Assembly (NCBI RefSeq): GCF_000426045.1 | Contig: NZ_AUEP01000005.1 | Coordinates: forward strand, 1-64,000 | DNA length: 64,000 nucleotides | Source: Marmoricola sp. URHB0036 | Lineage (GTDB): Bacteria; Actinomycetota; Actinomycetes; Propionibacteriales; Nocardioidaceae | Reading direction: 5' to 3' | Shown: positions 7,001 through 24,486 of the stretch, piece by piece | Layout: each line of letters begins with the position of its first letter | How positions within the stretch are numbered: the stretch's first letter is position 1 | Made by a program: the position numbers and the translations under genes | Notes under the pieces: generated by a model | The model's database searches: none | Told to the model about the DNA's origin: nothing | What the model saw: only the letters and a program-made list of their open reading frames with translations

Positions 7001-7951
7001 TCAGCCCACGCCGAGCACGTCGATGACGAAGACCAACGTGGAGTTGGCCGGGATGCCCGGTTGAGCGGTCTTGCCGTACGCCGTGTCGGGCGGGCAGATC
7101 AGCATCACGCGAGCGCCCTCCTTGAGCCCGGCCAGGCCCTGGTCCCAGGCCTTGATGACGCCGCCGAGCCCGATGGAGAACTTCGCGGGCTCCTTGCCGT
7201 AGGTGTTGTTGAACGGCTCCTTGGCGCCCCACACCTGACCGATGTAGTCCGCGGCGATCCGGTCGGGGTTCTCGATCGCGGGGCCGGTGCCCTCACGCAG
7301 CGGGATGACGGCGAACTTCTTCGGCTTGGCGAGGCCGCTGAAGTCGAGCCTGCTGAGGTCGTCGTCCGACGACTCCAGCTTCGGCGCGGTCGCGGGGGCC
7401 GGGAGGCTCTTCCCGGTCGGTCCGTCGAGGATCTTGGTCGGGTCGGTGGAGAGGATGTCGGCCACCATCACCAGCGAGTCGCCCTTCTTGATGCCGAGCT
7501 GCGGCGCCCCCGTCGTCCCGTAGGCGTCGTCGGAGGTCGAGGCCACCACCACCCGGCTGTCGGCGCTCCTGCCGACGAGCGAGTTGGTCAGGGAAGGAAA
7601 GACCTGGTCGCCGAGCTTGACCTCGAGGGGCCGCTGGCCGGCGTCGTGGGTGGAGATCGCGGTCTTGCCGGTGCGGCCGTCGGCGATCGTGAGGCCCAGG
7701 ATGGTGGTCGCGTCGGCGCCGACCTCGTCGCCCTTGCCCGACTCGGTGGTCCACGCGGTCGTCTTCTTCACCGTCAGCGGGGTGTCGATCTTGATGGTCG
7801 GCTTCTCGGCGTACTTCCCGGTGACCGTGACCTTGTCCTGCAGGCTCGAGGCCTGGTCCTTGTCGGTGGAGCCGCAGGCGGAGACAGCGATGGCTGACAC
7901 GAGCGCTGTGACGACGACGCCGGCACGGCGGGGGTGGTGAAGCAGGGTCAC
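7001..7951 (-). CDS. Secreted FKBP-type peptidyl-prolyl isomerase lipoprotein
   Basis: A 316-aa exported isomerase. The signal peptide ([19 protein letters not shown]) ends in a lipobox, so lipidation at Cys on the outer face of the membrane is likely. The C-terminal ~90 residues are a canonical FKBP domain ([33 protein letters not shown]). The first half looks like a diverged FKBP-like domain. The GTG at 7951 was chosen because it overlaps the pafA stop as GTGA (4 bp); the open frame upstream runs inside pafA. A secreted foldase is thus coupled to the cytosolic Pup ligase and the PafBC regulator genes. Confidence 0.93.
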
Positions 7952-9309
7952 ATTCCCTCTATCAGTCGTTCCACTCGCTCGTCGTGGGAGCGGAAGGGGT
8001 CCTTGCACAAGACGGTGCGTTGGGCCTGGTCGTTCAGCTTCAGGTGTACCCAGTCGACGGTGAAGTCACGTCGACGTTCCTGGGCGCGCTTGATGAAGTT
8101 GCCCCTCAACCGCGCCCGCGTCGTCTGCGGGGGCACCGACTTGGCCCGGAAGATCGCGAGGTCGTTGGTCACCCGCTTGACCGCACCGCGCTTCTCGAGC
8201 AAGTAGTAGAGGCCGCGCTCGCGGTGGATGTCGTGGTAGGCGAGGTCCAGCTGGGCGATCCGGGGGTGCCCGAGGGGCAGCCCGTGGCGCTCGCGGTAGC
8301 GCTCGAGCAGCTTCCACTTGATGACCCAGTCGATCTCGCGCTCGACCAGGGACAGGTCACCGGACTCGACTGCCTTCAGGCCCCGCTCCCACAGGTCGAG
8401 CGAGGCCTCGATGACGGGGGTGTGCAGCTCGCGTCGGTCGACGAAGTCGCGCACCCGGGTGAGGTACTCGCCCTGGATGTCGAGGACGCTGGCCTCGCGG
8501 CCGTTGGCCAGCCGCACCTTGCGCTTGCCGGTCATGTCGTGGGAGATCTCGCGGATCGCCCGGATGGGGTTCTCCATCGTGAGGTCGCGCATCACCACGC
8601 CCTCCTCGATCATCCGCAGCACGAGGTCGCAGCTCGCCACCTTGAGCATGGTGGTGGTCTCGCTCATGTTGGAGTCGCCGACGATCACGTGCAGGCGGCG
8701 GAAGCGCTCGGCGTCGGCATGGGGCTCGTCGCGGGTGTTGATGATCGGCCGCGACCGGGTGGTGGCGCTGGAGACCCCCTCCCAGATGTGCTCGGCCCGC
8801 TGGCTCACGGAGTACGACGCGCCGCGCGGCGTCTGGGTCACCTTGCCGGCGCCGCAGATGATCTGGCGCGTCACCAGGAACGGGATGAGTACGTCGGCCA
8901 GCTTGCTGAACTCACCGTGCCGGCTGACCAGGTAGTTCTCGTGACAGCCGTAGGAGTTGCCGGCACTGTCGGTGTTGTTCTTGAACAGGTAGACGTCGCC
9001 GGAGATGCCCTCGTCGCGCAGTCGCCGCTCGGCGTCGACGAGCAGCCCCTCGAGGACCCGCTCCCCCGCCTTGTCGTGGGTGACCAGGTCGATGATGTCG
9101 TCGCACTCGGGGGTGGCGTACTCGGGGTGGCTGCCGACGTCGAGGTAGAGCCTGGCGCCGTTGGCCAGGAAGACGTTGCTGCTGCGGCCCCAGCTGACGA
9201 CCTTGCGGAACAGGTAGCGGGCGACCTCGTCGGGAGACAGCCGCCGCTGCCCCTTGAACGTGCACGTGACGCCGTACTCGTTCTCGATCCCGAAGATTCG
9301 CCGGTCCAC
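7948..9309 (-). CDS. pafA: Pup-protein ligase PafA
   Basis: Attaches the C-terminal glutamate of Pup to substrate lysines. It belongs to the carboxylate-amine ligase family related to glutamine synthetase. It begins [14 protein letters not shown], close to mycobacterial PafA, and carries ATP/Mg residues in [14 protein letters not shown] and [20 protein letters not shown]. The GTG at 9309 was chosen over the GTG at 9315 because TAGGGT sits exactly 6 nt before it, the leaderless spacing used by many genes here, and because homologues start at this point. It heads the pafA-FKBP-pafB-pafC operon. It is separated from pup-prcBA by about 5 kb of unrelated genes. Confidence 0.96.
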
Positions 9310-9373
9310 GCTCACACCCTATGCGTCCGATGGCTGGTCGGCGGGCGCCCGCGCGGACCGGTTCACGAAACTG

Positions 9374-9546: not shown

Positions 9547-11643
9547 GTGAATCGAGCACATCTCGGGACATGCGTGGGAGCCGTCGCGGCTCTCGCGCTG
9601 AGCTCCCTGGCCATGGCGGGGACGGTCCACGCCGCCACGCCGGCCACGGTCACGTCGGGCCCGTCCGGGCACCAGACCAGCCATCGAGCGGATCCGTCGT
9701 TCGGTCCGGGCCAGCGCAAGGCCGCGGTGGCTGATGCCAAGAAGGGCGAGGACACCCGCGCGCGACAGCTCCACCTCGGCGCGAAGCAGGACCTCGTCGT
9801 CAAGGACGTCCAGCGCGACGTCGACGGCGTCGAGCACGTCCGCTACGAGCGGACCTACGCCGGTCTTCCGGTCGTGGGCGGCGACCTCGTCGTGCACCAG
9901 ACCGGGTCCGGTGCGCCGCAGACGGTCGACTGGGCCTCCCGGGCCGACATCACCCTCGGCTCGACCACGCCCGGCGTGGCGGCCGGCAAGGTCCGCGGCC
10001 AGGACGCCCGCAAGGTCGTGTACGCCGCCAACCACAAGCCGGTGCTGGCCTGGGAGTCGACGGTGACCGGGACCGCGAAGGACGGGACGCCGATCCGCAA
10101 CCTCGTCTACACCGACGCGCGCAACGGCCAGCAGCTCGCCGTACTGCCGCAGATCGTGACCGACACCGGCACCGGCAGCTCGCTCTACAGCGGCACCGTC
10201 AGCCTCACCACCACTCCCAGCGGCTCGAGCTGGACGCTGACCGACGGAGCACGCGGCGGCCACAAGACCTACGACGCCACCGGGATCACCAGCGAGAGCG
10301 ACTACCGCACGGGGACCCTGTTCACCGACGCCGACGACGTCTGGGGCACCGGCACCACCTCGAGCAAGCAGAGCGCTGCTGTCGACGCACACTACGGCGC
10401 CGCGCTGACGTGGGACTTCTACAAGAACACCTTCGGCCGCAGCGGCATCCGCAACAACGGCGTCGCGGCGTTCTCGCGAGTCCACTTCGGCAACAGCTAC
10501 GAGAACGCCTTCTGGGACGACTCGTGCTTCTGCATGACCTACGGCGACGGTGGTGCCAGCCTCAAACCGGTCGTGGCGATCGACGTGGCCGGCCACGAGA
10601 TGTCCCACGGTGTCACCGCGGCCACCGACGGCCTGGGGTACTCCGGCGACGCGGGCGGCCTCAACGAGTCGACCTCCGACGTGATGGGCACGATGGTGGA
10701 GTTCTCCGCCAACAACTCCAGCGACCCCGGTGACTACTACATCGGCGAGAAGATCATGAAGGACGGCACCTACCTGCGACGGATGGACAACCCGTCCGCC
10801 GACGGCGGCTCGGTGAACTGCTGGTCGACGAGCACCAAGAACCTCGACCCGCACTACTCCTCGGGCGTGGGCAACCACCTGTTCTACCTGCTCGCCGAGG
10901 GGACCGGGTCGAAGACCATCGGTGGCCTGCCGCACAACGGCACGACCTGCAACGGCACCACGCTGACCGGCATCGGGCGGGCGGCCGCTGCCGCGGAGTG
11001 GTACCGCTCGATGACGACCTACTGGACCTCGACCACGACCTACCCGCAGGCCGCCAACGGGATGATCAAGGCCGCCAAGGACCTCTACGGCGCAACCTCG
11101 GCCCAGTGCACGGCGACCGTTGCCGCCTGGAAGGGCGTCAGCGTCACGCCGACCGAGACGTGCGGGACCACCGGTGGCGGCGGGACGGGCAGCAACCTGC
11201 TGGCCAACCCGGGCTTCGAGTCCGGTGCGACCTCGTGGACGTCGAGCAGCGGAGTGATCACCAACTCCACGAGCGGCACCCCGCACGCGGGCAGCTACTA
11301 CGCCTGGCTCGACGGGTACGGCACCACGCACACCGACACGCTGTCGCAGACCGTCACGGTCCCGTCGGCGTCGAAGGCGACGTTGTCCTTCTACCTCTAC
11401 GTGGACACCGAGGAGTCCGGCAGCACGGCGTACGACAAGCTCACCGTCGCGGTCACGAGCGGGGGTACGACGACGACCAGGGCGACGTACTCCAACGCGA
11501 ACGCGAGCTCTGGCTACGTGCAGAAGACGATCGACCTCTCGGCGTACACCGGGAAGACGATCACCCTGAAGCTCACCGGCACCGAGGACTCCTCGGCGGC
11601 GACGAGCTTCCTGCTCGACGACACCAGCCTGACGACCGGCTGA
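9547..11643 (+). CDS. Secreted M4 (thermolysin-like) zinc metalloprotease with C-terminal beta domain
   Basis: A 698-aa extracellular neutral protease. It has a signal peptide (CVGAVAALALSSLAMAGTVHA), an FTP/PepSY-like propeptide (RTYAGLPVVGGDLVVHQ), and an M4 catalytic domain with zinc ligands in H350-E-M-S-H354 and E374 (24 residues after H350, as in thermolysin). The active-site His is probably H444 in SGVGNHLFYLL. A C-terminal ~150-aa Thr/Ser-rich beta module (NPGFESGATSW onward) resembles carbohydrate- or surface-binding domains. The GTG at 9547 follows AAAGGGAG. The long open frame upstream is the shadow of pafA. The gene interrupts the proteasome locus on the opposite strand. A strong hairpin follows it. 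Confidence 0.95.
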   Translation: MNRAHLGTCVGAVAALALSSLAMAGTVHAATPATVTSGPSGHQTSHRADPSFGPGQRKAAVADAKKGEDTRARQLHLGAKQDLVVKDVQRDVDGVEHVRYERTYAGLPVVGGDLVVHQTGSGAPQTVDWASRADITLGSTTPGVAAGKVRGQDARKVVYAANHKPVLAWESTVTGTAKDGTPIRNLVYTDARNGQQLAVLPQIVTDTGTGSSLYSGTVSLTTTPSGSSWTLTDGARGGHKTYDATGITSESDYRTGTLFTDADDVWGTGTTSSKQSAAVDAHYGAALTWDFYKNTFGRSGIRNNGVAAFSRVHFGNSYENAFWDDSCFCMTYGDGGASLKPVVAIDVAGHEMSHGVTAATDGLGYSGDAGGLNESTSDVMGTMVEFSANNSSDPGDYYIGEKIMKDGTYLRRMDNPSADGGSVNCWSTSTKNLDPHYSSGVGNHLFYLLAEGTGSKTIGGLPHNGTTCNGTTLTGIGRAAAAAEWYRSMTTYWTSTTTYPQAANGMIKAAKDLYGATSAQCTATVAAWKGVSVTPTETCGTTGGGGTGSNLLANPGFESGATSWTSSSGVITNSTSGTPHAGSYYAWLDGYGTTHTDTLSQTVTVPSASKATLSFYLYVDTEESGSTAYDKLTVAVTSGGTTTTRATYSNANASSGYVQKTIDLSAYTGKTITLKLTGTEDSSAATSFLLDDTSLTTG

Positions 11644-11666: not shown

Positions 11667-11694
11667 GGGGTCCGGGCCGGAAGGCCCGGACCCC
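11667..11694 (+). terminator. Hairpin after the metalloprotease gene
   Basis: A perfect 12-bp stem (GGGGTCCGGGCC with its complement) closes on a GGAA tetraloop, 23 bp after the stop. No U-tract follows. The -10 of the next small gene begins 3 bp later. Confidence 0.75.
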
Positions 11695-11708
11695 GTTATG
11701 CTCCGTGA

Positions 11709-11894
11709 ATGGACCAGGTCACAGCACCGTTGACGCTGGGGATCCCCGGCCTCCTGCTGATCGCCATCATCGTGCTGGTCGTCATCTTCGGGGCCGTGCT
11801 CCTGGTCGTCTTCCTGGTCGGCCGGGCCCCCAGGTCGCACGACGAGCCGCCGCCCCCGGAGGCGCCGAGAGATGCCGGAGAGCCGCCGGCCTAG
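11709..11894 (+). CDS. Small single-pass membrane protein, unknown function
   Basis: A 61-aa product with one long hydrophobic helix (LLLIAIIVLVVIFGAVLLVVFLV, about residues 15-37) and a short proline/acid-rich tail (HDEPPPPEAPRDAGEPPA). I do not recognise the family. Support for a real gene is the TATGCT hexamer exactly 6 nt before the ATG, the leaderless pattern of this window, placed directly after a terminator hairpin. Its stop overlaps the stop of the convergent TetR gene by 4 bp. Confidence 0.55.
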   Translation: MDQVTAPLTLGIPGLLLIAIIVLVVIFGAVLLVVFLVGRAPRSHDEPPPPEAPRDAGEPPA

Positions 11895-12496
11895 TCGCTC
11901 GGGTCGACGAGGATCCCGTCGAGGACGATCGCGAGCATCGGCTCCGCGTCGTCGGCCCCGATGCCGGACTGGTCGACGACGGTGGCGATGCCGCTGACGA
12001 TGCGCATCACCTCGCGGGCGTCGACGCCGTCGCGCAGGGCACCCTTGTCGCGCACGCTGTCGAGCACCTTCTGGTTGGCGCCGACCAGTATCTGGCACTT
12101 GCGGTAGATCGGTGAGGCCGGGTCGTCCATCGCGGCCATCACCTTCGCGGCCGCGCCGTGGTAGATCCCGACGTTCTCCACGAACTTGCTGAACCAGCCC
12201 GAGAGCGCCTCGCGCGGCGGCAGCTCGGAAGCGGCGGCCTCGTCGCTGTCGGCGTTGATCCGGTCGGCCCAGTCGCGCATCACCGCGTCGATGAGGGCCT
12301 CGCGCGTCGGGAAGTGTCGGTAGAGGGTGCCGGGGCCGACCCCTGCCCGCTTGGCGATCTCGTCCAGGGAGGCGTCCGCCCCGCGCTCACGGAACATGGC
12401 CCGCGCGGTCTCCACGATCTTGTCGTAGTTGCGCTGGGCGTCGGCTCGCAGCGGCTTGCGCTCGACCCCGGTCGTGGTGGACACCTCGGCACCCAA
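11891..12496 (-). CDS. TetR/AcrR-family transcriptional regulator
   Basis: About 200 aa. The N-terminal TetR helix-turn-helix is clear (residues ~20-65: RNYDKIVETARAMFRERG, then SLDEIAKRAGVGPGTLYRHFPTREAL). It is followed by an all-helical ligand/dimer domain of the AcrR C-terminal type. It is divergent from an MFS exporter, with two tandem palindromes between them, so it probably represses the exporter and itself until a toxic ligand binds. The track start is a TTG at 12496; a GTG at 12484 is an equally good start. Its 3' end overlaps the small membrane protein gene by 4 bp. Confidence 0.93.
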   Translation of the reverse strand: MGAEVSTTTGVERKPLRADAQRNYDKIVETARAMFRERGADASLDEIAKRAGVGPGTLYRHFPTREALIDAVMRDWADRINADSDEAAASELPPREALSGWFSKFVENVGIYHGAAAKVMAAMDDPASPIYRKCQILVGANQKVLDSVRDKGALRDGVDAREVMRIVSGIATVVDQSGIGADDAEPMLAIVLDGILVDPSD

Positions 12497-12515
12497 TTGC
12501 GTTGCACCCCTTGCT

Positions 12516-12568
12516 AAGCGGAGACTGTCTCCGCTACTGTAGCTGCTAACCGGAGGAACTCTCCGATA
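12516..12568. promoter_or_regulatory. Two tandem TetR-type operators between tetR and MFS genes
   Basis: Site 1 (12516-12536) contains a perfect palindrome, AGCGGAGAC-T-GTCTCCGCT. Site 2 (12548-12568) is an imperfect version with CGGAG and CTCCG arms; the two 21-mers match at 15 positions. Centres are 32 bp apart, about three helical turns, so dimers would bind the same DNA face. This is the likely binding region of the adjacent TetR regulator. Confidence 0.7.
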
Positions 12569-12603
12569 AGTCTACGTCACTCTCGTGAGACAAGGAACTT
12601 CCC

Positions 12604-14016
12604 ATGTCACCTCAGGTGAAGCGCGCCCTCGGACTGGCGCTCATCCTCACCGTCCAGCTCATGCTCATCCTCGACATGGCCGTGGTGAACGTCGCCCTCC
12701 CCGACATCCGCGGAGACCTCGGCTTCACCCCGTCGGCCCTGTCGTGGGTCCTGAACGGCTACACCCTGACCTTCGGCGGCCTGCTGCTCCTCGGCAGCCG
12801 CCTCGGCGACGTCTTCGGCCGTCGCCGCACTTTCATGGCCGGCCTGGCGCTGTTCACCACCGCCTCGCTCCTCGGCGGCCTGGCCCCCACGGCCGAGCTG
12901 CTGGTCGCCGCCCGGGCGCTCCAGGGCGTCGGTGCCGCCATCGCGGCCCCGAGCGTGCTGGCCCTGCTCACCACTTCGGCTCCGGATGCGGCCGCCCGCA
13001 ACAAGGCGCTCGCCCTGTTCAGTGCGGTTTCCTCGGCCGGTGCCTCGATCGGCCTGCTGCTCGGCGGCGTGCTGACCGGCTACGCCTCGTGGCGCTGGTC
13101 ATTGCTGATCAACGTCCCGCTCGGCATCGTGGTGCTGCTCGCGGTCCGGCGCCTGGTCGCGGAGACCGAGCGCCAGCACGCCCGCTTCGACGTGGCCGGC
13201 GCCGTCATGGCGACGCTCGGCTCGGCCAGCCTGGTGTTCGCGTTCATCAACGCTCCCGACCACGGGTGGACCTCCGCGGGCACGCTCGCTGCGTTCGCCG
13301 TCGCGGTCGTCCTGCTCGGCTCGTTCGCGGTGCACCAGCGGCGTACGGCAGCCCCGCTCCTCCCGACGGAGCTGCTGCGCAGTCGCATGCGGGTCGGTGC
13401 CGTCACGGTGATGGCACTGTTCGTGGGAGCGCAGTTCGCGTTCTTCTTCTTCACCGTGCAGTTCATGCAGGGCGTGCTCGGGTACGGCGCCCTCCGCTCG
13501 GGCTTCGCGTTCCTGCCGCTCACCCTGCTGATCTTCGCCACCTCGCGGGTCTCCCCGCGGCTGGTGCAGCGGTTCGGCGTACGCCCGCTGATCGCGACCG
13601 GCGCCAGCCTGGTCGCCGTCGCGAACCTGTGGGTCTCGGCCCTCGGCAGCGACAGCGGCTACGTCGACGGGCTGCTCGGCCCGATGCTGCTCGTCGGGAT
13701 CGGTGCCGGCCTGACCTTCATGCCGATCACCGTTGCGGTGCTCAGTGACGTCGAGCCGGCCCACGCCGGGTCAGCGTCCGGCCTGCTCCAGATGTCGCAG
13801 CAGGTCGGCGGCAGCCTGGGTCTCGCCGTGCTGGTCACCGTCTACGCCTCGCACACCGTGCCGGGCGACGTGGTGGCCGGGATGCGGCAGTCCTTCGAGA
13901 CCGGCGCCGGGTTCCTGGCGCTGGGCGTGCTCGTGGCCCTGGTGATGCTGCGGCGCCCCCGCCCGGAGGGCACCGACGCAGCCGTCGAGGACGCTGCGCT
14001 CGAGCTCGCGGCCTGA
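12604..14016 (+). CDS. MFS drug exporter, DHA2 (EmrB/QacA) family
   Basis: A 470-aa integral membrane antiporter. It starts with VQLMLILDMAVVNVALPDI, the DHA2 signature for helix 1, and has motif A (LGSRLGDVFGRRRTF) in the first cytoplasmic loop. It has about 14 hydrophobic segments, as in the 14-TM drug:H+ antiporters. The ATG follows AAGGA at 7 nt. It is divergent from the TetR gene, with tandem operators between, so expression is probably induced by its substrate. The substrate cannot be predicted. A hairpin overlapping the prcA 3' end lies just downstream. Confidence 0.93.
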   Translation: MSPQVKRALGLALILTVQLMLILDMAVVNVALPDIRGDLGFTPSALSWVLNGYTLTFGGLLLLGSRLGDVFGRRRTFMAGLALFTTASLLGGLAPTAELLVAARALQGVGAAIAAPSVLALLTTSAPDAAARNKALALFSAVSSAGASIGLLLGGVLTGYASWRWSLLINVPLGIVVLLAVRRLVAETERQHARFDVAGAVMATLGSASLVFAFINAPDHGWTSAGTLAAFAVAVVLLGSFAVHQRRTAAPLLPTELLRSRMRVGAVTVMALFVGAQFAFFFFTVQFMQGVLGYGALRSGFAFLPLTLLIFATSRVSPRLVQRFGVRPLIATGASLVAVANLWVSALGSDSGYVDGLLGPMLLVGIGAGLTFMPITVAVLSDVEPAHAGSASGLLQMSQQVGGSLGLAVLVTVYASHTVPGDVVAGMRQSFETGAGFLALGVLVALVMLRRPRPEGTDAAVEDAALELAA

Positions 14017-14025: not shown

Positions 14026-14068
14026 GACGAGCCGCTCCTCGCACCTACGGTGCGATGGGCGGCTCGTC
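14026..14068. terminator. Bidirectional hairpin between MFS gene and prcA
   Basis: An outer 10-bp stem (GACGAGCCGC, 14026-14035, with 14059-14068) and an inner 7-bp stem (TCGCACC, 14039-14045, with 14049-14055) enclose a 3-nt loop. It overlaps the last codons of prcA and probably ends transcripts from both sides. Confidence 0.65.
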
Positions 14069-14836
14069 GTCGTTCCCGGCAGGTGCCGCAGGAGGCGTCA
14101 CGGGATCGGAGGAGGTCTCCTCGGCCTTGGCCGACTCACCCTTGTCCCCCAGGATCCCGACCAGCACCGGTGGGGCGATCCGCTTGAACTTGCGCTCCTG
14201 GCTGCGGGTGCGGTCGAGGACCGCGACCTCGAGGTCGCGCGCCGGCACGTCCCGGTGACCGGTCTCGCTCTGCCCGAGCGCAGCGGCCGCCAGGGCGAGG
14301 GCCTCGTCGCGCGCCAGTCCGGGGGCGTAGCGCTCCTTGAGGTACGTCGTCACCGCCTCCGCCGCTCCACCCATGACGGCGTAGTCGTGCTCCTCGACGA
14401 CCTGGCCGTCGAAGGTGAGTCGGAAGATCTGGTCGTCGTCGGCCGTGTCGCCGACCTCGGCCACGAAGATCTCGATCTCGTAGGGCTTCTCTCCCCCGCT
14501 GGAGAAGATCGTGCCCAACGTCTGGGCGTAGGCGTTGGCCAGTCCACGTCCGGTCACGTCGCGGCGGTCGTAGGAGTAGCCCCGCATGTCGGCGAGGCGG
14601 ACGCCGGCGATGCGGAGGTTCTCGAACTCGTTGTAGCGACCCACCGCGGCGAAGGCGATCCGGTCGTAGATCTCGCTGATCTTGTGCAGCGCGGCCGAGG
14701 GGTTCTCGGAGACGAAGAGCACGCCGTCGGCGTACCGCACCACCGCGACGGAGCGCCCGCGGGCGATGCCCTTGCGCGCGAAGTCCGCCCGGTCCTTCAT
14801 CAGCTGCTCGGGCGACACATAGAACGGCATGGTCAT
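14045..14836 (-). CDS. prcA: Proteasome alpha subunit
   Basis: A 263-aa structural alpha-ring subunit of the 20S proteasome. It begins [39 protein letters not shown], the actinobacterial alpha signature, including the N-terminal segment that gates the pore. The tail is acidic and proline-rich ([10 protein letters not shown]). It lacks the catalytic Thr, as expected. It lies 97 bp downstream of prcB. The ATG at 14836 has GAGG 6 nt upstream; a second ATG two codons later is possible. It would dock the Mpa ATPase. Confidence 0.97.
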
Positions 14837-14933: not shown

Positions 14934-15776
14934 TCACGTGAGGGAGGCGTTGGGGCCGTCGGGTCGCTGCATCCGGCCGCTGACGACCTCGTCGGCGATC
15001 GCGGCGACCTGGTCCTGCGACATCCGGGTGTGGCCGTCGGCGGTGATCACGCTGACGACCGGGAAGATCCGGCGGGTGAGGTCGGGTCCACCGGTGGCGG
15101 AGTCGTCGTCGGCGGCGTCGTACAAGGACTGGATGAGCGCGGTGACGCACTGCTGCTGGTCGAGGTCGTCGCGGTAGAGCTTCTTCAGCGAGCCGCGGGC
15201 GAACACCGACCCGGAGCCGACCGAGTGGAACGCGGTCTCCTCGTAGCGACCACCGGTGACGTCGTAGGAGAAGATGCGGCCCTGCTCGCTGATCAGGTCG
15301 AAGCCGGCGAACAGGGGGACGACGGCGAGGCCCTGCATCGCCATCCCGAGGTTGCCGCGGATGAGGGCGGAGAGCCGGTTGGCCTTGCCGTCGATGGAGA
15401 GCGTGGTGCCCTCGATCTTCTCGTAGTGCTCGAGCTCGGTCTGGAAGAGCCGGACCAGCTCGACCGCGAGTCCCGCGGTGCCGGCAATGCCGACGCAGGA
15501 GTACTCGTCGGTCGGGAAGACCTTCTCGATGTCGCGCTGGGCGATGATGTTGCCCATCGTGGCCCGGCGGTCACCGGCCATCACGACACCGCCGTCGAAC
15601 GTCGCCGCCACGATCGTGGTGGCGTGCGGCGCCAGGTCGGCAGCACTGCCGGCGGGCAGCGTCATCCGTGACGGGAGCAGCTCGGGCGAGACAGCGCCGA
15701 CGAACTCGGAGAAGGAGGACGTGCCGGGAGTCAGGTAGGACTCAGGCAGTCGGGCACCAGAGGTGGGTGGAGTCAT
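14934..15776 (-). CDS. prcB: Proteasome beta subunit
   Basis: The catalytic beta subunit, 280 aa, with a ~52-residue propeptide ending at LAPHA. The mature chain should start at Thr53 ([21 protein letters not shown]), the N-terminal nucleophile. The conserved Asp/Arg in AGDRRAT and the Lys of the catalytic set are in the expected region. It starts 6 bp after the pup stop, giving the standard pup-prcB-prcA order with probable coupling to pup translation. Confidence 0.97.
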
Positions 15777-15782: not shown

Positions 15783-15986
15783 TCACTGACCGCCCTTCTG
15801 GATGAACGACTTCACGAAGTCCTCGGCGTTGGTCTCGAGGACGTCATCGATGTCCTCGAGGATCGCGTCGATGTCCTCGTCGAGCTGCTCCTTGCGTTCG
15901 GTGACGGCATCGGCCGGTGCGGGCGCTGCATCGGTCGGCTCGTCTTCCTCGTGGGACTTGCGCGGCTGCTTCTGCTCCTGCGCCAT
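15783..15986 (-). CDS. pup: Prokaryotic ubiquitin-like protein Pup
   Basis: A 67-aa, acidic, mostly disordered tag that ends GGQ. The C-terminal Gln must be deamidated to Glu by Dop before PafA can conjugate it. The central helix-forming region (QLDEDIDAILEDIDDVLETNAEDFVKSFIQ, residues ~35-64) is the part that binds the Mpa coiled coils. The ATG at 15986 has an ideal AGGAGG 5 nt upstream; the longer frame upstream is not used. It is the first gene of pup-prcB-prcA. Confidence 0.97.
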   Translation of the reverse strand: MAQEQKQPRKSHEEDEPTDAAPAPADAVTERKEQLDEDIDAILEDIDDVLETNAEDFVKSFIQKGGQ

Positions 15987-16027
15987 GGCGACCTCCTGTG
16001 ACCGGACGCTGGTACGTCGTTGTCTCG

Positions 16028-16033
16028 ACCCTA
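16028..16033 (-). promoter_or_regulatory. Probable -10 element of pup-prcBA
   Basis: TAGGGT on the minus strand lies about 41 nt before the pup ATG. This leaves a short 5' leader with AGGAGG, unlike the leaderless genes around it. No good -35 is visible. Divergent PLD-like gene 1 begins 135 bp to the right. Confidence 0.45.
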
Positions 16034-16168: not shown

Positions 16169-17785
16169 ATGTCTCTCCCCCTCAAGGCCTTCCCCCATGG
16201 TCGGCCGGTTACCCCTGCGCGTGCCTCCGCGCGTGCCCTTGCCACCGTGCTCGTCACGCTGGTGGCCCTGCTCCTCACGCTGCTCTCGTTCGCCCCCGCG
16301 GGTGCGACGAGCACGCCGCAGCACCCGGCTGCCAAGCAGACCAGACAGCAGGCACAGCACCAGACCCACCACAAGCCCAAGCACCGCAAGAAGCAGCACA
16401 AGAAGAAGCAGCACAAGAAGCAGGCGAAGAAGCAGCACCCGAAGCCCAAGCCGAAGCCGAGGAAGCCCCAGGCGCCGCCGAAGCCTCCCGGGCAGCCGCC
16501 GCGCAGCTACGTGGTGCCGGACACCAGCTACTTCAGCTACCCCAACCTGGGCAAGGCCGAGCGGTTGGCGATCCGCAACCGGGTGCTGAAGACGATCAAC
16601 AGCACCTGGGGCGGGCGCCGTACCAGCATCGGCACGCCCCGACCGGAGAACGGCTCCATCCGGATCGCGACCTGGTCCTTCGACGACTGGGATGTCGCTC
16701 ACGCACTGGTGGCCGCACGCAAGCGTGGCGTCAGCGTGCAGGTCGTCGCCGCCAAGACCCGCAACCAGACCCACGGCGCGTGGCGCTGGCTGCGCAAGCG
16801 GCTCGGTCAGAAGCTCTACCGGCCGGGCTACCCGCTGAGTCGTGACACCGCCAGCTTCGCCCGCGTCTGCCGCGGCGCCTGCCGGGGTCCGGGTGGTACG
16901 CCGCACGCGAAGTACTTCCTGTTCAAGGACGTCGGCGCCGCGCACGTCCCGGCCATCACGTTCCAGACCTCGATGAACCTGACCTACATGGCCTACCAGG
17001 GACAGTGGAACCAGGCGCAGGTCTCCCACTCCCCCGATGTCTACGCCGACTTCCTGAGCATCTTCAAGCAGGCGAGGCTGGCCCGACCGGTGGCGCAGCC
17101 CTACCACGTGAAGGTGCTCGGACCGGTCGTCGACTACTTCTTCCCCCGACCCCAGGCCACGGCGGCGGAGGATCCCGCGCTGCAGATCCTGAACGCCACC
17201 CGTTGCGTCGGGGCGACCACCCCGGGCGGCAGGACCAAGATCCGCGTCAACCAGTACGCCATCTACGGCGACCGCGGGGTGTGGCTCTCCAAGAAGCTGC
17301 GAGCCCTGTGGAAGGCGGGCTGCGACGTCTCCATCATCTACTCGGTCAGCAGCCGGCCGGTGCTCTCCATCCTGCGCAACCCGACCGGGCGTGGCCCGAT
17401 ACCGATGCGGCAGTCGGTGGTGACCGACTCCTGGGGCAACCTGGTCAAGTACAACCACAGCAAGTGGATGACGATCATCGGCGCCTGGGGCAAGTCGCAG
17501 GGGACCTACGTGACCTTCAGCGGGTCGGCCAACTGGGCCAACCTCGCCTTCGGTGACGACGAGCAGATGCAGCGCATCTCCAGCACGCGCGAGGCCCTGC
17601 GCTACAACGCCAACTTCGTGAAGACGTGGAAGCAAGAGTCCTCCGACGAGCCCAGCTACGGCCGGGTGGCAGCCTTCGGTCGCGGCCGGGCGCCGTACCT
17701 CGCCCGGGCTGCGCTGCTCCGTGGGCTGCCCGAGGACGAGCCGGCCTTCGGTCAGGGGATCTACCGCTACATGGAGAGCGACTGA
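16169..17785 (+). CDS. Secreted phospholipase-D-like protein, paralogue 1 (His/Lys-rich linker)
   Basis: A 538-aa exported protein with two HKD-type half-sites. It has a signal peptide (ARALATVLVTLVALLLTLLSFAPAGA) and then a very basic His/Lys/Pro linker (residues ~67-111) that the other two copies lack. The first half-site is H246-x-K248 with TSMNLT; the second is H430-x-K432 with SGSANW and DDEQ. The Asp of the first HxKx4D is Lys here. Conserved Cys pairs (CRGACRG, plus one each in RCVGA and GCDV) suggest disulfides. The start was set at the ATG at 16169, just before the signal peptide; its ribosome site is weak. It is divergent from pup. Substrate unknown: phospholipid or nucleic acid. 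Confidence 0.88.
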   Translation: MSLPLKAFPHGRPVTPARASARALATVLVTLVALLLTLLSFAPAGATSTPQHPAAKQTRQQAQHQTHHKPKHRKKQHKKKQHKKQAKKQHPKPKPKPRKPQAPPKPPGQPPRSYVVPDTSYFSYPNLGKAERLAIRNRVLKTINSTWGGRRTSIGTPRPENGSIRIATWSFDDWDVAHALVAARKRGVSVQVVAAKTRNQTHGAWRWLRKRLGQKLYRPGYPLSRDTASFARVCRGACRGPGGTPHAKYFLFKDVGAAHVPAITFQTSMNLTYMAYQGQWNQAQVSHSPDVYADFLSIFKQARLARPVAQPYHVKVLGPVVDYFFPRPQATAAEDPALQILNATRCVGATTPGGRTKIRVNQYAIYGDRGVWLSKKLRALWKAGCDVSIIYSVSSRPVLSILRNPTGRGPIPMRQSVVTDSWGNLVKYNHSKWMTIIGAWGKSQGTYVTFSGSANWANLAFGDDEQMQRISSTREALRYNANFVKTWKQESSDEPSYGRVAAFGRGRAPYLARAALLRGLPEDEPAFGQGIYRYMESD

Positions 17786-17879
17786 GGGCCGAGGCGCTCC
17801 CCAATATCGAGACTGCTGCGTGTTAGTTTCCAAGTCCCTTTCGGGGCTCTCGGTCCGCTACTCCTGCGAAGGAGATCCC

Positions 17880-19310
17880 ATGCGTCGTACGCCGCGCGCG
17901 ATCCTGCTCGCCCTGGTCTCCGTCCTGGTGGCGACGGGACTCACCACGACTTCCGCATCAGCCGCCCCGTCCGCCGAGGCGCAGACCGTCGCCGCCGCGC
18001 CTGCTGCGAGGAAGGCGGCCCGGGACATCGGGACGCCGCCGATCATCTACGCGCCCCCCTCGGGGAACTACTTCGCCTACCCCAACCGCAGCAAGCAGGC
18101 GAAGCTGGCCATCCGCAACCGGGTGCTGAACAGCATCAAGGGCACCTGGGGCGGCCGCCGCACGAGCATCGGCACCCCGATGCCGGGCAACGGCAAGATC
18201 CGCATCGCCACCTGGACCTTCGACGACTGGTCGATCGCCCGCGCACTCGTCGCGGCGCGCGCTCGAGGCGTGAGCGTGCAGGTGATCGCTGCCAAGGCGG
18301 CCAACAAGCAGAAGGGTCCGTGGAAGTACCTCAAGAAGCGCCTCGGCAGTCGCCTGATCCGACCCGGCTACCCCGCCAGCGCCGACACCGTCAGCTTCGC
18401 TCGTGAGTGCCGCGGCTCCTGCCGCGGTCCCGGGGGGACCGCCCACGCGAAGTACTTCCTCTTCGACAAGATCGGCCGCGGCCACCAGCGCTACGTCACC
18501 TTCCAGACCTCGATGAACCTCACCAGGTTCGGCTACACCGGCCAGTGGAACCAGGCGACGGTGATGAAGTTCAAGTCGGTCTACGACGACTACCTGGGCG
18601 TGTTCAAGCAGGCACGGCTCGCGCACCGGACCACGAGTCCCTACCACGTGCGCACCGTCGGGCCGAAGGCCCTCGACTACTTCTTCCCACGTCCGGGAGC
18701 GCGAGCTGCCGAGGACCCCGTCATGCAGACGCTCCGCCTGGTCAGCTGCACCGGCGCCGGGTACGGCGGAACGGCCAACCACCGCACGCGCATCCGGATC
18801 ATCCAGTACGCCATGTACGGCGACCGCGGCGTCTGGATCGCCAAGCGCCTCCGCGCGCTGTGGAACGCCGGCTGCGACGTCCGGATGATCTACAGCGTGA
18901 TCACCCGCCCGGTGCTGCAGATCCTGCGCAGCGGCTCCGGTCGTGGCCCGATCCCCCTGCGGCAGTCGGTGACCAAGAACGGCGCCGGCGAGATCGTGAA
19001 GTACAACCACAGCAAGTGGATGACGATCACCGGCCACTGGGGCTCGCTGACCTCGGCCTGGGTCACCTTCAACGGCTCGGCCAACTGGTCCCTGGCCGCC
19101 TTCGCCAACGACGAGCAGATGCAGCGGATCCGCGACGTGTCCCAGACCAAGCCCTACCTGGCCGCGTTCAACACCACCTGGAACCAGAAGACCTCGAAGA
19201 AGCCCCCGCACGCCCGCCTCTCGGCATCCGGCCGGGCACTGCCCATCCCGGGTGTCCCCGAGACGGCGCCGACCTGGGGCAAGGGGATCTACAAGTTCAT
19301 GCAGCCCTGA
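17880..19310 (+). CDS. Secreted phospholipase-D-like protein, paralogue 2
   Basis: A 476-aa exported HKD protein closely similar to its two neighbours over the whole mature region. It has a signal peptide (RAILLALVSVLVATGLTTTSASA). The first half-site, H189-x-K191 with D196, is the only complete HxKx4D in the family, followed by TSMNLT. The second is H377-x-K379 with NGSANW and NDEQ. Cys residues match the siblings (CRGSCRG, VSCTGA, AGCDV). The C-terminus GKGIYKFMQP carries the family end motif G-x-GIY-x-(F/Y). The ATG at 17880 follows AAGGAG. It lies 94 bp after paralogue 1 and converges on dop. Confidence 0.9.
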   Translation: MRRTPRAILLALVSVLVATGLTTTSASAAPSAEAQTVAAAPAARKAARDIGTPPIIYAPPSGNYFAYPNRSKQAKLAIRNRVLNSIKGTWGGRRTSIGTPMPGNGKIRIATWTFDDWSIARALVAARARGVSVQVIAAKAANKQKGPWKYLKKRLGSRLIRPGYPASADTVSFARECRGSCRGPGGTAHAKYFLFDKIGRGHQRYVTFQTSMNLTRFGYTGQWNQATVMKFKSVYDDYLGVFKQARLAHRTTSPYHVRTVGPKALDYFFPRPGARAAEDPVMQTLRLVSCTGAGYGGTANHRTRIRIIQYAMYGDRGVWIAKRLRALWNAGCDVRMIYSVITRPVLQILRSGSGRGPIPLRQSVTKNGAGEIVKYNHSKWMTITGHWGSLTSAWVTFNGSANWSLAAFANDEQMQRIRDVSQTKPYLAAFNTTWNQKTSKKPPHARLSASGRALPIPGVPETAPTWGKGIYKFMQP

Positions 19311-19327
19311 CGCTGGTCGCGAATGAG

Positions 19328-19373
19328 TGAGAGCCAACCGGTCGCGTCTCGGGTCACGACTGGCTGGCTCTCA
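19328..19373. terminator. Bidirectional hairpin between PLD-like gene 2 and dop
   Basis: 17-nt arms (19328-19344 and 19357-19373; TGAGAGCCAACCGGTCG against its near-complement, two wobble positions) close a 12-nt loop. It sits in the gap between two convergent genes. The rest of the gap to 19452 shows nothing clear. Confidence 0.65.
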
Positions 19374-19452
19374 GCGAAGAACCTAGTACGCCGCCCTGAA
19401 CGCGCTCTGGGAAATGTCCAAGAACGCCCTGTGTCGTGGTGTCCGGGCAGCG

Positions 19453-20961
19453 TCAGCGGGCGGTGAGGGCCTCGAACAGTCCGAGCGCGGTGTCGTGCTC
19501 GTCGAGGAGGGCGCCGACGTGGGCGCGGCTGCCGCGCAGGGGGTCGATGGTGGGGACGCGCTGGAGCGACTCGTGGCCCGGGAGGTCGAAGATCACCGAG
19601 TCCCAGGAGGCGGCGGCGATGTTGTCGGCGTACTTGCTCAGGCAGCGGCCACGGAAGTAGGCGCGGGTGTCCTCGGGGGGTTCGTGCATGGCCTCCTCGA
19701 CGACGGAGTCGGAGACCAGCCGCTTCATCCGGCCGAGCTTGAGCAGCCGGTGGTAGAGCCCTTTCTCGGGTCGCAGGTCGGCGTACTGCAGGTCGATCAG
19801 GTGCAGCTTGGCGTCGGACCACGCCAGGCCGTCGCGGTCGCGGTAGGAGTTGAGCAGCTTCAGCTTGGCCACCCAGTCGAGCTCGTCGGCGCACTCGAAG
19901 GGGTCGCGCTCGAGACGGGTGAGCACCGACTCCCAGCGCTTCATGACGTCCTTGGTGGGCGGGTCGACGTCACCGCCGCGACGCTCCTCGAGGTAGCGCT
20001 CGGCGAGGTGGAAGTACTCCCACTGCAGCTGTACGGCGGTCATCTTGCGCCCGTCGCCGACCTCCAGCAGGTGGGTGAGGCCGGGGTCGTGGGAGACCTC
20101 CTTGAGCGAGGCCACCGGCCGCGAGACGCTCAGGTCGGCAGTGATGAACCGGTCCTCGATCATGGAGAGCACCAGCGCGGCGGTGCCGACCTTGAGGTAG
20201 GTCGAGGTCTCGGCCAGGTTGGCGTCGCCGATGATCACGTGCAGCCGGCGGTACTTCTCCGGATCGGCGTGCGGCTCGTCACGGGTGTTGATGATCGGCC
20301 GCTTGAGGGTCGTCTCGAGGCCGACCTCCACCTCGAAGTAGTCGGCCCGCTGGCTGATCTGGAAGCCGTCGCCGTGCCCGTCCTGGCCCAGCCCGACCCG
20401 GCCGGCGCCGCAGACCACCTGACGGCTGACGAAGAACGGCGTGAGGTGGCGCACGATGTCGCCGAACGGCGTGGAGCGGCGGACCAGGTAGTTCTCGTGG
20501 GCGCCGTACGACGCTCCCTTGTTGTCGGTGTTGTTCTTGTAGAGGACCAGGTCGCCCTCGCCCGGCACGGCGGCGAACCGGGTGGCGTCGAGCGCGATCT
20601 GCTCCCCCGCCTTGTCCCAGATGACGATGTCCATCGGGTTGGTGCACTCGGGTGTGGAGTACTCGGGATGCGCGTGGTCGACGTAGAGCCGGGCACCGTT
20701 GGTGAGGATCACGTTGGCCAGGCCGAGGTCCTCGTCGGTCAGCTGGCTGGGATCGGCGACGTCGCGGGACATGTCGAAGCCTCGGGCGTCGCGCAGCGGC
20801 GACTCCTCCTCGAAGTCCCAGCGGGCCCGCCGCGCCTTCAGGGTGGCGGTGGCATAGGCGTTCACCAGTCGGGTGCTCGCCACCATGGGGTTGGCGTGCG
20901 GGTGCCCGGAGACCGAGATGCCGAACTCGGTCTCGGTCCCCATGACACGACGAACACTCAT
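19453..20961 (-). CDS. dop: Depupylase/deamidase of Pup (Dop)
   Basis: A 502-aa paralogue of PafA that deamidates the C-terminal Gln of Pup and also removes Pup from substrates. The nucleotide-binding start [22 protein letters not shown], the Dop-loop region ([20 protein letters not shown]), [14 protein letters not shown] and [20 protein letters not shown] are all present. The Dop-loop separates it from PafA. The ATG at 20961 has TACGCT exactly 6 nt upstream, so it is probably leaderless. PLD-like genes lie on both sides on the opposite strand, separating dop from pup and from mpa. Confidence 0.96.
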
Positions 20962-21097
20962 GGGCCGAGCGTACGGCGCTCCTGCTCGCGTCTAGACAAG
21001 TGCCTATGAATCGGGTCCTTGGCCCGGACTGTCATGTTAGGTTGCCGAGGCCCCAGCCCGGGTGTCTCGGCTCCATACTTGTCTTCGGGGGAAGCTC

Positions 21098-22519
21098 ATG
21101 CCCGTACGTCGTACCTCGATCGCCGTCCTCGTCGCAGCCCTGCTCGCGTCGTTGCTGGCCTTCGCCGGTTCCTCTTCCGCTGCCGCGCCGGCCGCGAGTG
21201 TCGCCAAGCCGGCCGCCGCTGCCCGCGTGTTCGGCCAGCCACCGGCGAGGTACACGATCCCGGCCGACAGCTACTTCAGCTTCCCCAACGCCGGGAAGAA
21301 GACGAAGTTCGCCATCCGCAACCGGGTGCTGATGACCATCAACAGCACCTGGGGTGCACGGCGGCTGCCCAACGGCTTGTCCTCCCCGAGCGCCGGCACC
21401 ATCCGCATCGCCACGTGGTCCTTCAAGGACTGGACGATCGCCCGGGCCCTGGTCGCGGCCAAGGCCCGTGGCGTCAGCGTCCAGGTCGTCGCTGCGAAGG
21501 CCCGCAACGCCCCCAACCCGGAGTGGCGGTTCCTGAAGAAGAAGCTCGGCACCCGGCTCGCCCGCGCCGGCCACCCCGAGACCGTCAACCAGGTCAGCTT
21601 CGCCCGCGAGTGCCGGGGCGCCTGCCGTGGCCGCGGCGGCACGCCCCACGCCAAGTACTTCCTGTTCACCAACGTCGGTCCCTACCACGTGAAGAACACC
21701 GTCATCCAGACCTCGATGAACCTCACCAAGATGGGCTACGAGGGCCAGTGGAACCAGGCCGAGGTCACCCACGACCCGGCCGTCTACGGCGACTTCAACA
21801 CGATCTACGCCCAGACCCGCGTCGGCGTGCCCGTCGCTGCGCCGCACCGGCTGTGGGACCGCGGCGTCTACACCGACGAGTTCTTCCCGTTCCACGCCAA
21901 CCCCAGCACCGACCCGGTGATGCGCACGCTCGCCCCCGTCCGGTGCACCGGCGCCCAGGTCGGTACGCCGGGCGGCCGGACCCGCATCCGCATCATCAAC
22001 TACTCGATCTACGGTGATCGCGGTGTCTGGATCGCCAAGCGCCTCCGTCAGCTGTGGAACCAGGGCTGCGACATCAAGATGATCTACGCGGTCAGCAGCC
22101 GGCCGGTCGTCTCGATCCTGCGCAACGGCTCGGGCCGCGGTCCGATCCCGCTGCGCCAGTCGGTGATCACCAACAGCAAGCGCGAGATCGTCAAGTACAA
22201 CCACAGCAAGTGGTTCACGATCATGGGCCGCTACGGCAACGACACCAAGGCCTACGTCACGATGAGCGGCTCGGCCAACTTCAGCCTCTTCGCCTTCACC
22301 GGCGACGAGCAGGTCCAGACGATCAAGTCGGCCGGCCAGGTGTTCCGGCACAACAACAACTTCAACGCCACCTGGCGCCAGAAGACCTCGCACAGCCCGG
22401 GCTTCGGCATCAAGGGCTCCGAGGGCCGGATGACCGAGGCCGCCCGGATCGCGCTGATCCCGGAGGAGCCGACCTGGGGCAAGGGGATCTACAAGTTCCT
22501 CGGCCCCGACGGCGACTGA
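21098..22519 (+). CDS. Secreted phospholipase-D-like protein, paralogue 3
   Basis: A 473-aa exported HKD protein of the same family as the two genes left of dop. It has a signal peptide (SIAVLVAALLASLLAFAGSSSAAA). The first half-site is H184-x-K186 with TSMNLT; Thr191 replaces the Asp. The second is H369-x-K371 with SGSANF and DEQ, so the usual Trp after GSAN is Phe. Family cysteines (CRGACRG, VRCTGA, QGCDI) and the end motif GKGIYKFL are kept. The ATG at 21098 follows GGGGGAAG. About 60 nt upstream it shares a TGTTAG-x-TT element with paralogue 2. It converges on mpa. Confidence 0.9.
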   Translation: MPVRRTSIAVLVAALLASLLAFAGSSSAAAPAASVAKPAAAARVFGQPPARYTIPADSYFSFPNAGKKTKFAIRNRVLMTINSTWGARRLPNGLSSPSAGTIRIATWSFKDWTIARALVAAKARGVSVQVVAAKARNAPNPEWRFLKKKLGTRLARAGHPETVNQVSFARECRGACRGRGGTPHAKYFLFTNVGPYHVKNTVIQTSMNLTKMGYEGQWNQAEVTHDPAVYGDFNTIYAQTRVGVPVAAPHRLWDRGVYTDEFFPFHANPSTDPVMRTLAPVRCTGAQVGTPGGRTRIRIINYSIYGDRGVWIAKRLRQLWNQGCDIKMIYAVSSRPVVSILRNGSGRGPIPLRQSVITNSKREIVKYNHSKWFTIMGRYGNDTKAYVTMSGSANFSLFAFTGDEQVQTIKSAGQVFRHNNNFNATWRQKTSHSPGFGIKGSEGRMTEAARIALIPEEPTWGKGIYKFLGPDGD

Positions 22520-22725: not shown

Positions 22726-24486
22726 CTACAGGTACTGACCGGTGTTGGAGACGGTGTCGATGGAACGACCCGGCTCGGTGCCCTGCTTGCCGGTGATGAG
22801 CGTGCGGATGAACACGATCCGCTCGCCTTTCTTGCCGGAGATGCGGGCCCAGTCGTCGGGGTTGGTGGTGTTGGGGAGGTCCTCGTTCTCCTTGAACTCA
22901 TCGACGCACGCCTGGAGCATGTGCTGCACGCGCATGCCCGGCTGGTCGTGGTCGATGACCTCCTTGATCGCCATCTTCTTGGCCCGGTCGACGATGTTCT
23001 GGATCATCGCGCCGGAGTTGAAGTCCTTGAAGTAGAGGACTTCCTTGTCGCCGTTGGCGTAGGTGACCTCGAGGAAACGGTTCTCCTCGGACTCGGTGTA
23101 CATCCGCTCGACGGTGGCGGTGATCATGCCGGCGACGCAGGCGTCCTTGTCGCCGCCGAACTCGGCCAGGTCGTCGGCGTGCAGCGGCAGCTCGGCGGTG
23201 AGGTACTTGGAGAAGATGTCGCGAGCCGACTCGGCGTCGGGCCGCTCGATCTTGATCTTCACGTCGAGCCGACCGGGTCGCAGGATGGCCGGGTCGATCA
23301 TGTCCTCGCGGTTGGAGGCGCCGATGACCAGGACGTTCTCAAGGCCCTCCACGCCGTCGATCTCGGAGAGCAGCTGCGGGACGATGGTGTTCTCGACGTC
23401 GGAGGAGACGCCCGAGCCGCGGGTGCGGAACAGGGAGTCCATCTCGTCGAAGAACACGATCACGGGTGTGCCGTTGCTGGCCTTCTCGCGAGCACGCTGG
23501 AAGACCAGGCGGATGTGCCGCTCGGTCTCGCCGACGTACTTGTTGAGCAGCTCGGGGCCCTTGATGTTCAGGAAGAACGAACGTCCCTCCTGGCCGGTCC
23601 TCTCGGCGACCTTCTTGGCCAGCGAGTTGGCCACGGCCTTGGCGATCAGGGTCTTGCCGCAGCCGGGAGGCCCGTAGAGGAGCACGCCCTTCGGCGGCTT
23701 GAGCTGGTAGTCCTTGAACAGCTCGGGGTGCAGGTAGGGCAGCTCGACCGCGTCGCGGATCTGCTCGATCTGGCCCGACAGGCCGCCGATCGAGCGGTAG
23801 TCGATGTCGGGGACCTCCTCGAGCACGAGCTCCTCGACCTCGGACTTGGGCACCTTCTCGTAGACGTAGCCGGACTTGGCGTCGAGCAGCAGCGAGTCGC
23901 CGGCACGGAGGGTCAGCTCACGCAGCGGCTGGGCGAGGCGTACGACGCGCTCCTCGTCGGCGTTGGCGATGACCAGGACGCGTTCGCCGTCGGCGAGCAG
24001 CTCCTTGAACATGACGACCTCGCCGACCTCCTCGAAGTCGAGGGCGGCCACCACGTTGAGGGCCTCGTTGAGCATGACCTCCTGGCCCTTGGTCAGGTGG
24101 TCGAGCTCGACCGAGGGGCTGACGTTGACCCGGAGCTTGCGTCCCCCGGTGAACACGTCGACCGAGTCGTCCTCGTTGCGCTTGAGGAAGGTGCCGAAGC
24201 CGGTCGGCGGCTGGGCCAGCCGGTCGACCTCCTCCTTGAGGGTGATGATCTGTTCGCGGGCCTCGCGCAGCGTCTGGGCGAGACGCTCGTTCTGCGAGGT
24301 CACCGCCGACAGGGAGCGCTGCGTGTCCAGCAGGCGCTGGTCCAGGTCACGGGCACCGCCCGGTCCGTCCGCGAGCCGACGGCGCAGCTCGGCCACCTCG
24401 GCCTCGAGGAAGGAGACCTGGTTCAGCAGCTGGGCCGTGGTCGGGCCGTGCTCGGCACCTGAATCAGGCACGTGAACCACCTCCAT
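22726..24486 (-). CDS. mpa: Proteasome-associated AAA+ ATPase Mpa/ARC
   Basis: The hexameric unfoldase that captures pupylated proteins and feeds the 20S core. It has an N-terminal coiled coil (residues ~18-92) that binds Pup, tandem OB folds, then one AAA+ domain with Walker A GPPGCGKT, Walker [11 protein letters not shown] and an SRH region. It ends GQYL, the C-terminal motif that docks into the alpha ring. 586 aa from the ATG at 24486. A GTG at 24471 has GGAGGTGG placed well upstream and could be the true start, giving 581 aa. A -10 TAGGGT and a -35 TTGGCA lie upstream. Confidence 0.97.

Follow-up and report, generated by a model that had tools for sequence, protein, structure and literature searches.

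Three genes for predicted secreted phospholipase D-like proteins in the Pup-proteasome locus of Marmoricola sp. URHB0036: probable neighbours by one old insertion

Why should a Pup-proteasome locus be interleaved with genes for predicted secreted enzymes? The question is raised by a stretch of 64,000 nucleotides from Marmoricola sp. URHB0036 (Nocardioidaceae, Propionibacteriales; contig NZ_AUEP01000005.1, positions 1 to 64,000), hereafter the window, in which three phospholipase D (PLD)-like genes, PLD1, PLD2 and PLD3, lie between the proteasome genes mpa, dop and pup. Our answer, to which we assign a probability of roughly 0.7, is that PLD1-3 encode secreted tandem-HKD phosphodiesterases, closest by sequence to the Nuc/NucT nucleases, and that these genes occupy a slot of the Pup-proteasome locus that tolerates inserts. 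The part of this reading that concerns location, namely that the two sets of genes became neighbours by one old insertion into a permissive slot, is very probable. As to the proteins themselves, they are best read as fast-evolving secreted phosphodiesterases. We infer that these enzymes have no mechanistic link to Pup; a tie is unlikely, not disproved.

The Pup-proteasome genes mpa, dop, pup, prcB and prcA, followed by pafA, all lie on the minus strand of the window. The mpa-dop gap holds PLD3 and the dop-pup gap holds PLD2 and PLD1, all three on the plus strand, and matches to PLDc_2, TIGR03688 and TIGR03689 confirm an earlier note on this DNA, which had described three HKD genes interleaved with the proteasome genes on the opposite strand. 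The genes in question are as follows.

7948..9315, minus strand: pafA, Pup ligase (Pfam Pup_ligase, 557.6 bits)
14045..14836, minus strand: prcA, proteasome subunit (Pfam Proteasome, 60 bits)
14934..15776, minus strand: prcB, proteasome subunit (Pfam Proteasome, 130 bits)
15783..15986, minus strand: pup, 67 amino acids with a C-terminal GGQ (translation; 64-94% identical matches in 20/20 genus loci)
16169..17785, plus strand: PLD1, predicted secreted tandem-HKD phosphodiesterase, transcribed away from pup and containing a Lys-rich linker (PLDc_2, 66 bits, scored on a longer open reading frame of the same frame)
17880..19310, plus strand: PLD2, predicted secreted tandem-HKD phosphodiesterase (PLDc_2, 74 bits; alignments)
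19453..20961, minus strand: dop, depupylase/deamidase (TIGR03688, 740 bits)
21098..22519, plus strand: PLD3, predicted secreted tandem-HKD phosphodiesterase, transcribed away from dop at a distance of 136 bases within the mpa-dop gap (PLDc_2, 65 bits, scored on a longer open reading frame of the same frame)
22726..24486, minus strand: mpa, proteasomal ATPase (TIGR03689, 832 bits)

What kind of proteins are these? PLDc_2 (PF13091) was the sole domain matched in a Pfam scan of PLD1-3, and each protein carries two PLDc_2 stretches, with the scores listed above against a Pfam cut-off of 27 bits. Identity to PLD1 is 58% for PLD2 and 55% for PLD3, a similarity that, judged from their sequences, is beyond chance, and alignment bears out the features that the three were said to have in common: the half-sites HAK/TSMNLT and HSK/GSAN, four matching Cys and a C-terminal G-x-GIY motif. 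The shared signal peptide also claimed for them finds support in a strong hydrophobic N-terminal stretch in each protein (best 15-residue hydrophobicity mean 2.6-2.9, vs 0.7-1.4 for the products of dop, mpa, prcA and prcB), and all three are predicted to be exported. A Lys/His-rich low-complexity linker lies in PLD1 between the hydrophobic N-terminus and the PLD domain (approximately 16350-16480) and is not found in PLD2 or PLD3. When the window genome was searched with PLD2 at E<=0.001, no copy of the subfamily beyond PLD1-3 was found; two Marmoricola records that are metagenome-assembled genomes contain PLD genes 58-59% identical to those of the window.

All 42 aligned relatives match PLDc_2 at E<=0.001, and in all 42 the putative active-site residues H189, K191, N213, H377, K379 and N402, as well as Cys 177, 181, 290 and 332 (PLD2 numbers), are invariant. 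A Big_9 bacterial immunoglobulin domain occurs in 5/42, and the NgoFVII restriction-enzyme PLD domain is also matched by 4/42. The strict signature of the PLD superfamily, HxK(x)4D(x)6GSxN as worded in a passage of PMC5714352, is not present, the H-to-N spacing being 24 and 25 instead of 17; the position of the first-half Asp is D in PLD2, K in PLD1, T in PLD3 and mostly S in other relatives. PLD1-3 are assigned to the Pfam family PLDc_2 and not to the strict signature.

If PLD1-3 work like the PLD enzymes that have been characterised, the two HxK...N half-sites of a chain would together make up a single active site, which would cleave phosphodiesters via a phospho-histidine intermediate. The earlier suggestion of secreted phospholipases or nucleases is supported as to enzyme class; as to substrate, the sequence leans to the nuclease half, and the phospholipase half is less favoured. 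When a profile of the 42 relatives was compared with solved structures, the Nuc endonuclease ranked first (3.9e-14), followed by NucT (4e-9), Zucchini/MitoPLD entries (8e-9) and one phospholipase (1e-5). The protein cores are very basic, with an isoelectric point above 9 in 40/42 relatives (median 10.2) and net charges of +30 to +48 in the window; the same genome encodes two further PLDc_2 proteins, cardiolipin-synthase-like in our reading, with charges of +1.5 and +14.7. A third protein, whose start was probably set too early, was left out of this comparison. According to part of PMC5714352, NucT is a nuclease of the periplasm that associates with the membrane, uses a histidine mechanism and has a groove of positive charge. 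Because of the Nuc/NucT profile matches, the very basic cores and this description of NucT, we somewhat favour an exported nuclease over a phospholipase, and PLD1-3 might then act on extracellular DNA or RNA.

Several observations pull the other way on substrate. PLD2 scores 20-24 bits with the NCBIfam NucT models, whose cut-offs are 225-351, and PLD1 and PLD3 do not match these models; the structure-profile matches span short stretches of approximately 50-60 residues; the single-half-site layout of Nuc and NucT is unlike the chains of PLD1-3 (473-538 amino acids), which have both half-sites; and the Zucchini entries were deposited as 'mitochondrial cardiolipin hydrolase'. It is thus conceivable, though unlikely, that PLD1-3 are secreted phospholipases, or that they cleave phosphodiesters in anionic polymers of the cell wall, a proposal that competes with the substrate part only and leaves the neutral account of location unchanged. 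The name of the Zucchini entries suits it, and so do a LicD-like gene near unlinked relatives (11/20 loci, mostly of the largest sister genus), acyltransferase-SGNH genes in 3/20 genus loci and glycosyltransferase-like genes recognised by eye. Phospholipases D usually carry two half-sites within a single chain, as PLD1-3 do, and this likewise counts in its favour. Yet a nuclease is the best profile match, with the single phospholipase trailing by eight to nine orders of magnitude, and the basic cores also argue against this proposal.

Is the placement beside dop peculiar to the window? Among 24 genomes of the genus that were searched, dop was found in 22 and was missing from G005 (G numbers are our handles for genomes); a 23rd match, in G001, is pafA judging by its 42% identity, and the dop of G023 lies on a 3.7-kb contig on which the locus is not readable, so that 21 loci could be read. 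A PLD gene occupies the mpa-dop gap in 13/21 of these, on the opposite strand in every case, and three loci (the window, G012 and G017) have one or two copies in the pup-dop gap as well. The mpa-dop gap is without PLD in the other eight (G002, G003, G008, G009, G014, G018, G019 and G020), all with the proteasome genes kept, and it measures 50 bases in G018 and 5 bases in G019; most of these eight genomes have a PLD-family gene at another site. In the ten linked genomes besides the window, G012 and G017, the PLD protein is 33-38% identical to those of the window and Dop is 69-83% identical.

Outside the genus the picture is different. PLD relatives are common, being found at E<=1e-30 in 238/341 genomes of the family (own genus included) and, in a survey of the order, in 90/245 genomes; in both surveys four or six candidates were scored per genome and the best were listed, and copy numbers are therefore lower bounds. 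In 40 stretches around dop from other genera, each 6 to 10.5 kb long, PLD genes were not found. The family survey listed 119 PLD matches outside the genus, of which 45 were dropped, the dop of the same genome not being among the matches listed; none of the 74 kept (59 genomes) lies within 10 kb of dop, and the closest distance between PLD and dop on one contig is 463 kb, among the matches listed. In seven genomes of other families for which both genes were listed (G037, G039, G045, G049, G391, G420 and G444), PLD is not near dop by eye, the closest distance being about 158 kb (G045), again among the matches listed. Moreover, seven of the 21 PLD-bearing genomes of other families gave no dop match at E<=1e-120 (G392, G427, G428, G435, G440, G469 and G472, all from another family of the order and at least 98% complete), and the PLD family is therefore independent of dop. 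Co-occurrence combined with linkage to the Pup-proteasome across lineages was not found, the genes being linked in one genus only among the loci examined. The pattern named in the earlier note as speaking against a functional link, genes common at unrelated loci and not enriched near dop or pup, is thus what is seen outside the genus; inside it, the opposite is seen.

The surroundings of unlinked PLD copies were compared in 20 stretches, 17 from other genera and three from the genus of the window. A family that includes RCC1/cutinase and endonuclease/phosphatase-like members recurs in 14/20 and an mrp-like gene in 13/20, besides the LicD-like gene mentioned above, and MgtE-, DUF1003- and TatA/B-like genes lie nearby (loci L189-L205, mostly from the largest sister genus). 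A Pfam scan of ten proteins near unlinked copies (members from two stretches and one gene of a third) found no gene of the Pup system. This recurrent patch fits an extracellular role.

How, then, did the linkage arise? A tree was built of 57 PLD proteins, leaving out frames that were duplicates or truncations of the same genes and many of the copies listed, for which there was no locus sequence. In it the 21 linked copies all belong to a single clade (Shimodaira-Hasegawa-like approximate likelihood ratio support 99), which also takes in one unlinked protein of G022 and two unplaced ones of G023. When mapped onto a tree built from mpa, dop and prcB (21 genus loci, nine outgroups), the presence of PLD in the gap takes five changes, a number as low in 1/500 shuffles. 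Because the PLD clade is single, the simplest reading is that PLD was gained once, close to the base of the genus, and lost several times; exchange within the genus is possible. One ancestral PLD gene would have been inserted, on the opposite strand, into the mpa-dop gap; it would then have been inherited, tandem-duplicated and copied across dop in the lineage of the window, and lost in several other lineages. The tree proposed in the earlier note is thus in line with a single insertion and not with repeated recruitment, and the 'local duplication hotspot' considered there applies to the tandem and dop-flanking copies, the linkage itself being one inherited insertion. Close PLD pairs are under purifying selection: the ratio of nonsynonymous to synonymous substitution rates (dN/dS) is 0.18 for PLD vs 0.04 for dop in the G004/G016 pair, 0.38 for PLD1 and its partner in G012 (dop, 0.13), and 0.34 and 0.37 for two unlinked PLD pairs. 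Among the PLD paralogs of the window dN/dS is 0.54-0.74, near saturation, and these values were not used as evidence.

A functional tie to Pup was rejected as the main reading because the linkage was seen in a single genus only, fits a single origin and is missing from 8/21 loci. Nor did any observation speak for the idea that precursors of PLD1-3 are handled by the Pup system. The conserved linkage that had been offered as a sign of such a tie stands within the genus (13/21 loci); it was not seen in other genera, and one origin accounts for it. A recent foreign island was rejected as well, the guanine-plus-cytosine content of 16-22 kb (0.68-0.69) lying within the 0.66-0.73 of the surroundings. 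As to cargo of a mobile element, the proteins scanned included no transposase or integrase, and terminal repeats were not found around the PLD copies; the PLD copies themselves make up the long direct repeats of the window, whose longest inverted pair measures 33 bases at 73%. An RNA element was rejected too: the two Rfam matches fall far short of the gathering scores and were taken as chance.

The divergence of the linked copies, 33-38% identical to those of the window in ten genomes vs 69-83% for dop, would also be expected if they were antagonistic exported toxins diversified by competition and the locus were a site of cassette exchange, and the tandem duplication and the variable extra genes in the gap could be read in the same way. 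We consider this highly improbable. Neither the Pfam and NCBIfam matches of PLD1-3 nor the Pfam matches of the 42 relatives include a delivery or toxin domain, and the trees fit descent; immunity genes were not searched for specifically. There was no PADLOC match, on which ground a defence system was rejected too, and a phage search gave no match and a plasmid search two weak ones.

If one old insertion explains the linkage, why should these gaps have accepted it? Short elements in front of the genes suggest a reason.

16027..16033, minus strand: TAGGGTC, likely -10 element of pup's own promoter (conserved before pup in 50/61 loci)
17821..17829, plus strand: TGTTAGTTT, likely PLD2's own promoter element (TGTTA-type)
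20968..20973, minus strand: TACGCT immediately before dop, likely the -10 element of a leaderless promoter belonging to dop (conserved motif)
21035..21043, plus strand: TGTTAGGTT, likely PLD3's own promoter element (TGTTA-type; TAACA seen from dop)

TAGGGTC occurs within 110 bases before pup in the family loci far more often than the 0.3 expected by Markov resampling, whatever the distance between dop and pup, and the window, G012 and G017 have retained it between PLD1 and pup; a less strict form, TAGG[GCT]T, was found in 60/61 loci, a count made without a control. Similarly, TA[ACG][CG][CGT]T lies in the last 22 bases before dop in 17/21 genus loci (0.5 expected by resampling) and in 35/40 loci of other genera, 52/61 in total. 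TGTTA-type elements stand on the opposite strand upstream of PLD2, PLD3 and some relatives, and TAACA is present within 140 bases of dop in 8/13 PLD-bearing vs 0/8 PLD-less genus loci. These patterns suggest that pup, dop and most linked PLD genes have predicted promoter-like elements of their own, and the TAGGGTC and TA...T elements may be family-wide promoters of pup and dop. Because of these separate elements the gaps probably accept inserts: with dop and pup transcribed from promoters directly in front of them, an insertion need not cut a shared transcript.

Other genes are also found in these gaps. In other Nocardioidaceae, the mpa-dop gap contains an open reading frame for an S-adenosylmethionine-dependent methyltransferase in 12/40 stretches and one for a tRNA-editing domain in 9/40 (e.g. 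L172:3874-4497 and L154:5723-6193); over the whole stretches the counts are 21/40 and 18/40. The 20 genus loci include, besides the three with acyltransferase-SGNH genes, two with a membrane-protein-like gene that has no Pfam match and one with a methyltransferase. Upstream of dop in G020 (L136:9551-17649) is a cluster judged by eye to be glycosyltransferase-like; no mpa was found there within the stretch examined. The pafA-prcA gap of the window is filled too (9547-14016).

9547..11643, plus strand: secreted M4 (thermolysin-type) peptidase (Peptidase_M4, 168.9 bits; Peptidase_M4_C, 150.2 bits; FTP propeptide); the mechanical open reading frame is 7984-11643, and the start at 9547 was picked by eye, the codon there being confirmed as GTG
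11891..12496, minus strand: TetR regulator (TetR_N and TetR_C_43)
12604..14016, plus strand: major facilitator superfamily (MFS) transporter (MFS_1, 175 bits)

The M4 peptidase gene is divergent from pafA, and a 68% identical copy lies beside pafA in G010; the gene was not found in the remaining 19 genus loci, nor in the 40 stretches from other genera, a number of which end before pafA.

Some points count against a purely neutral location. Linkage inside the genus is strong and old, retained in 13/21 loci despite the divergence of PLD, and by the yardstick of the earlier note this favours a functional tie. Further copies in the lineage of the window were placed beside dop and not elsewhere. 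A second secreted hydrolase, the M4 peptidase, stands divergently beside pafA in two genomes. Finally, the promoter patterns were picked after inspection and in related loci, and they serve as leads only. A tie, if there is one, could be physiological: a starved cell recycles its proteins via the Pup-proteasome and exports hydrolases, such as a PLD nuclease and the M4 protease, and divergent neighbours share regulatory DNA. The conserved divergent placement beside dop (13/21) and beside pup (3/21), the peptidase gene divergent from pafA in the window and G010, and the extra PLD copies in the same locus all agree with it. We nevertheless regard it as improbable, as PLD is missing from eight of 21 loci that kept the proteasome genes, no linkage was seen in other genera, and dop and PLD have separate promoter-like motifs (a shared operator was not searched for systematically). 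The broader idea that the Pup-proteasome locus of this genus is a joint nutrient-recovery locus, in which protein recycling is combined with co-regulated exported scavengers divergent from dop, pup and pafA, is more doubtful still.

One old insertion into a permissive slot remains our preferred account, and it implies that a conserved neighbourhood within one genus, even beside a famous core system, can stem from a single event; descent should be tested before a functional link is claimed from gene neighbourhood. In addition, the large family of secreted basic PLD proteins in Propionibacteriales, on which no study was found in the literature searched, is open to expression and assay, and the motifs suggest that in Nocardioidaceae dop and pup are each transcribed from a promoter of their own.

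With regard to known systems, among the papers listed by searches of the open-licence literature, none deals with PLD genes within a Pup-proteasome locus; a term search of the main text of PMC2588565 gave no phospholipase, PLD or HKD, and the available part of the review PMC8223512 contains neither 'phospholipase' nor 'Nocardioides'. The PLDc_2 proteins of Propionibacteriales belong to the same family as PLD1-3, but their placeable copies outside the genus are not near dop. Two Streptomyces plasmids carry 28% identical relatives annotated 'phospholipase D-like domain-containing protein'. Nuc of pKM101 and NucT of Helicobacter pylori, the best two structure matches, share with PLD1-3 a hydrophobic N-terminus, HxK and GSxN motifs and a basic character; they act as dimers according to a passage of PMC5714352. 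Their chains of 155 and 162 amino acids have a single half-site each, whereas those of PLD1-3 combine two half-sites with four conserved Cys. Zucchini/MitoPLD proteins, the third-best profile match and over short stretches, are eukaryotic, unlike PLD1-3, and have a single half-site. They are treated as endonucleases in the same portion of PMC5714352. The Pup-proteasome neighbourhood in the accessible part of Iyer et al. (2008; PMC2588565), where PAC2, FKBP isomerases and a DeoR regulator are named as further neighbours, brings mpa, dop, pup, prcB, prcA and pafA together, as is the case here.

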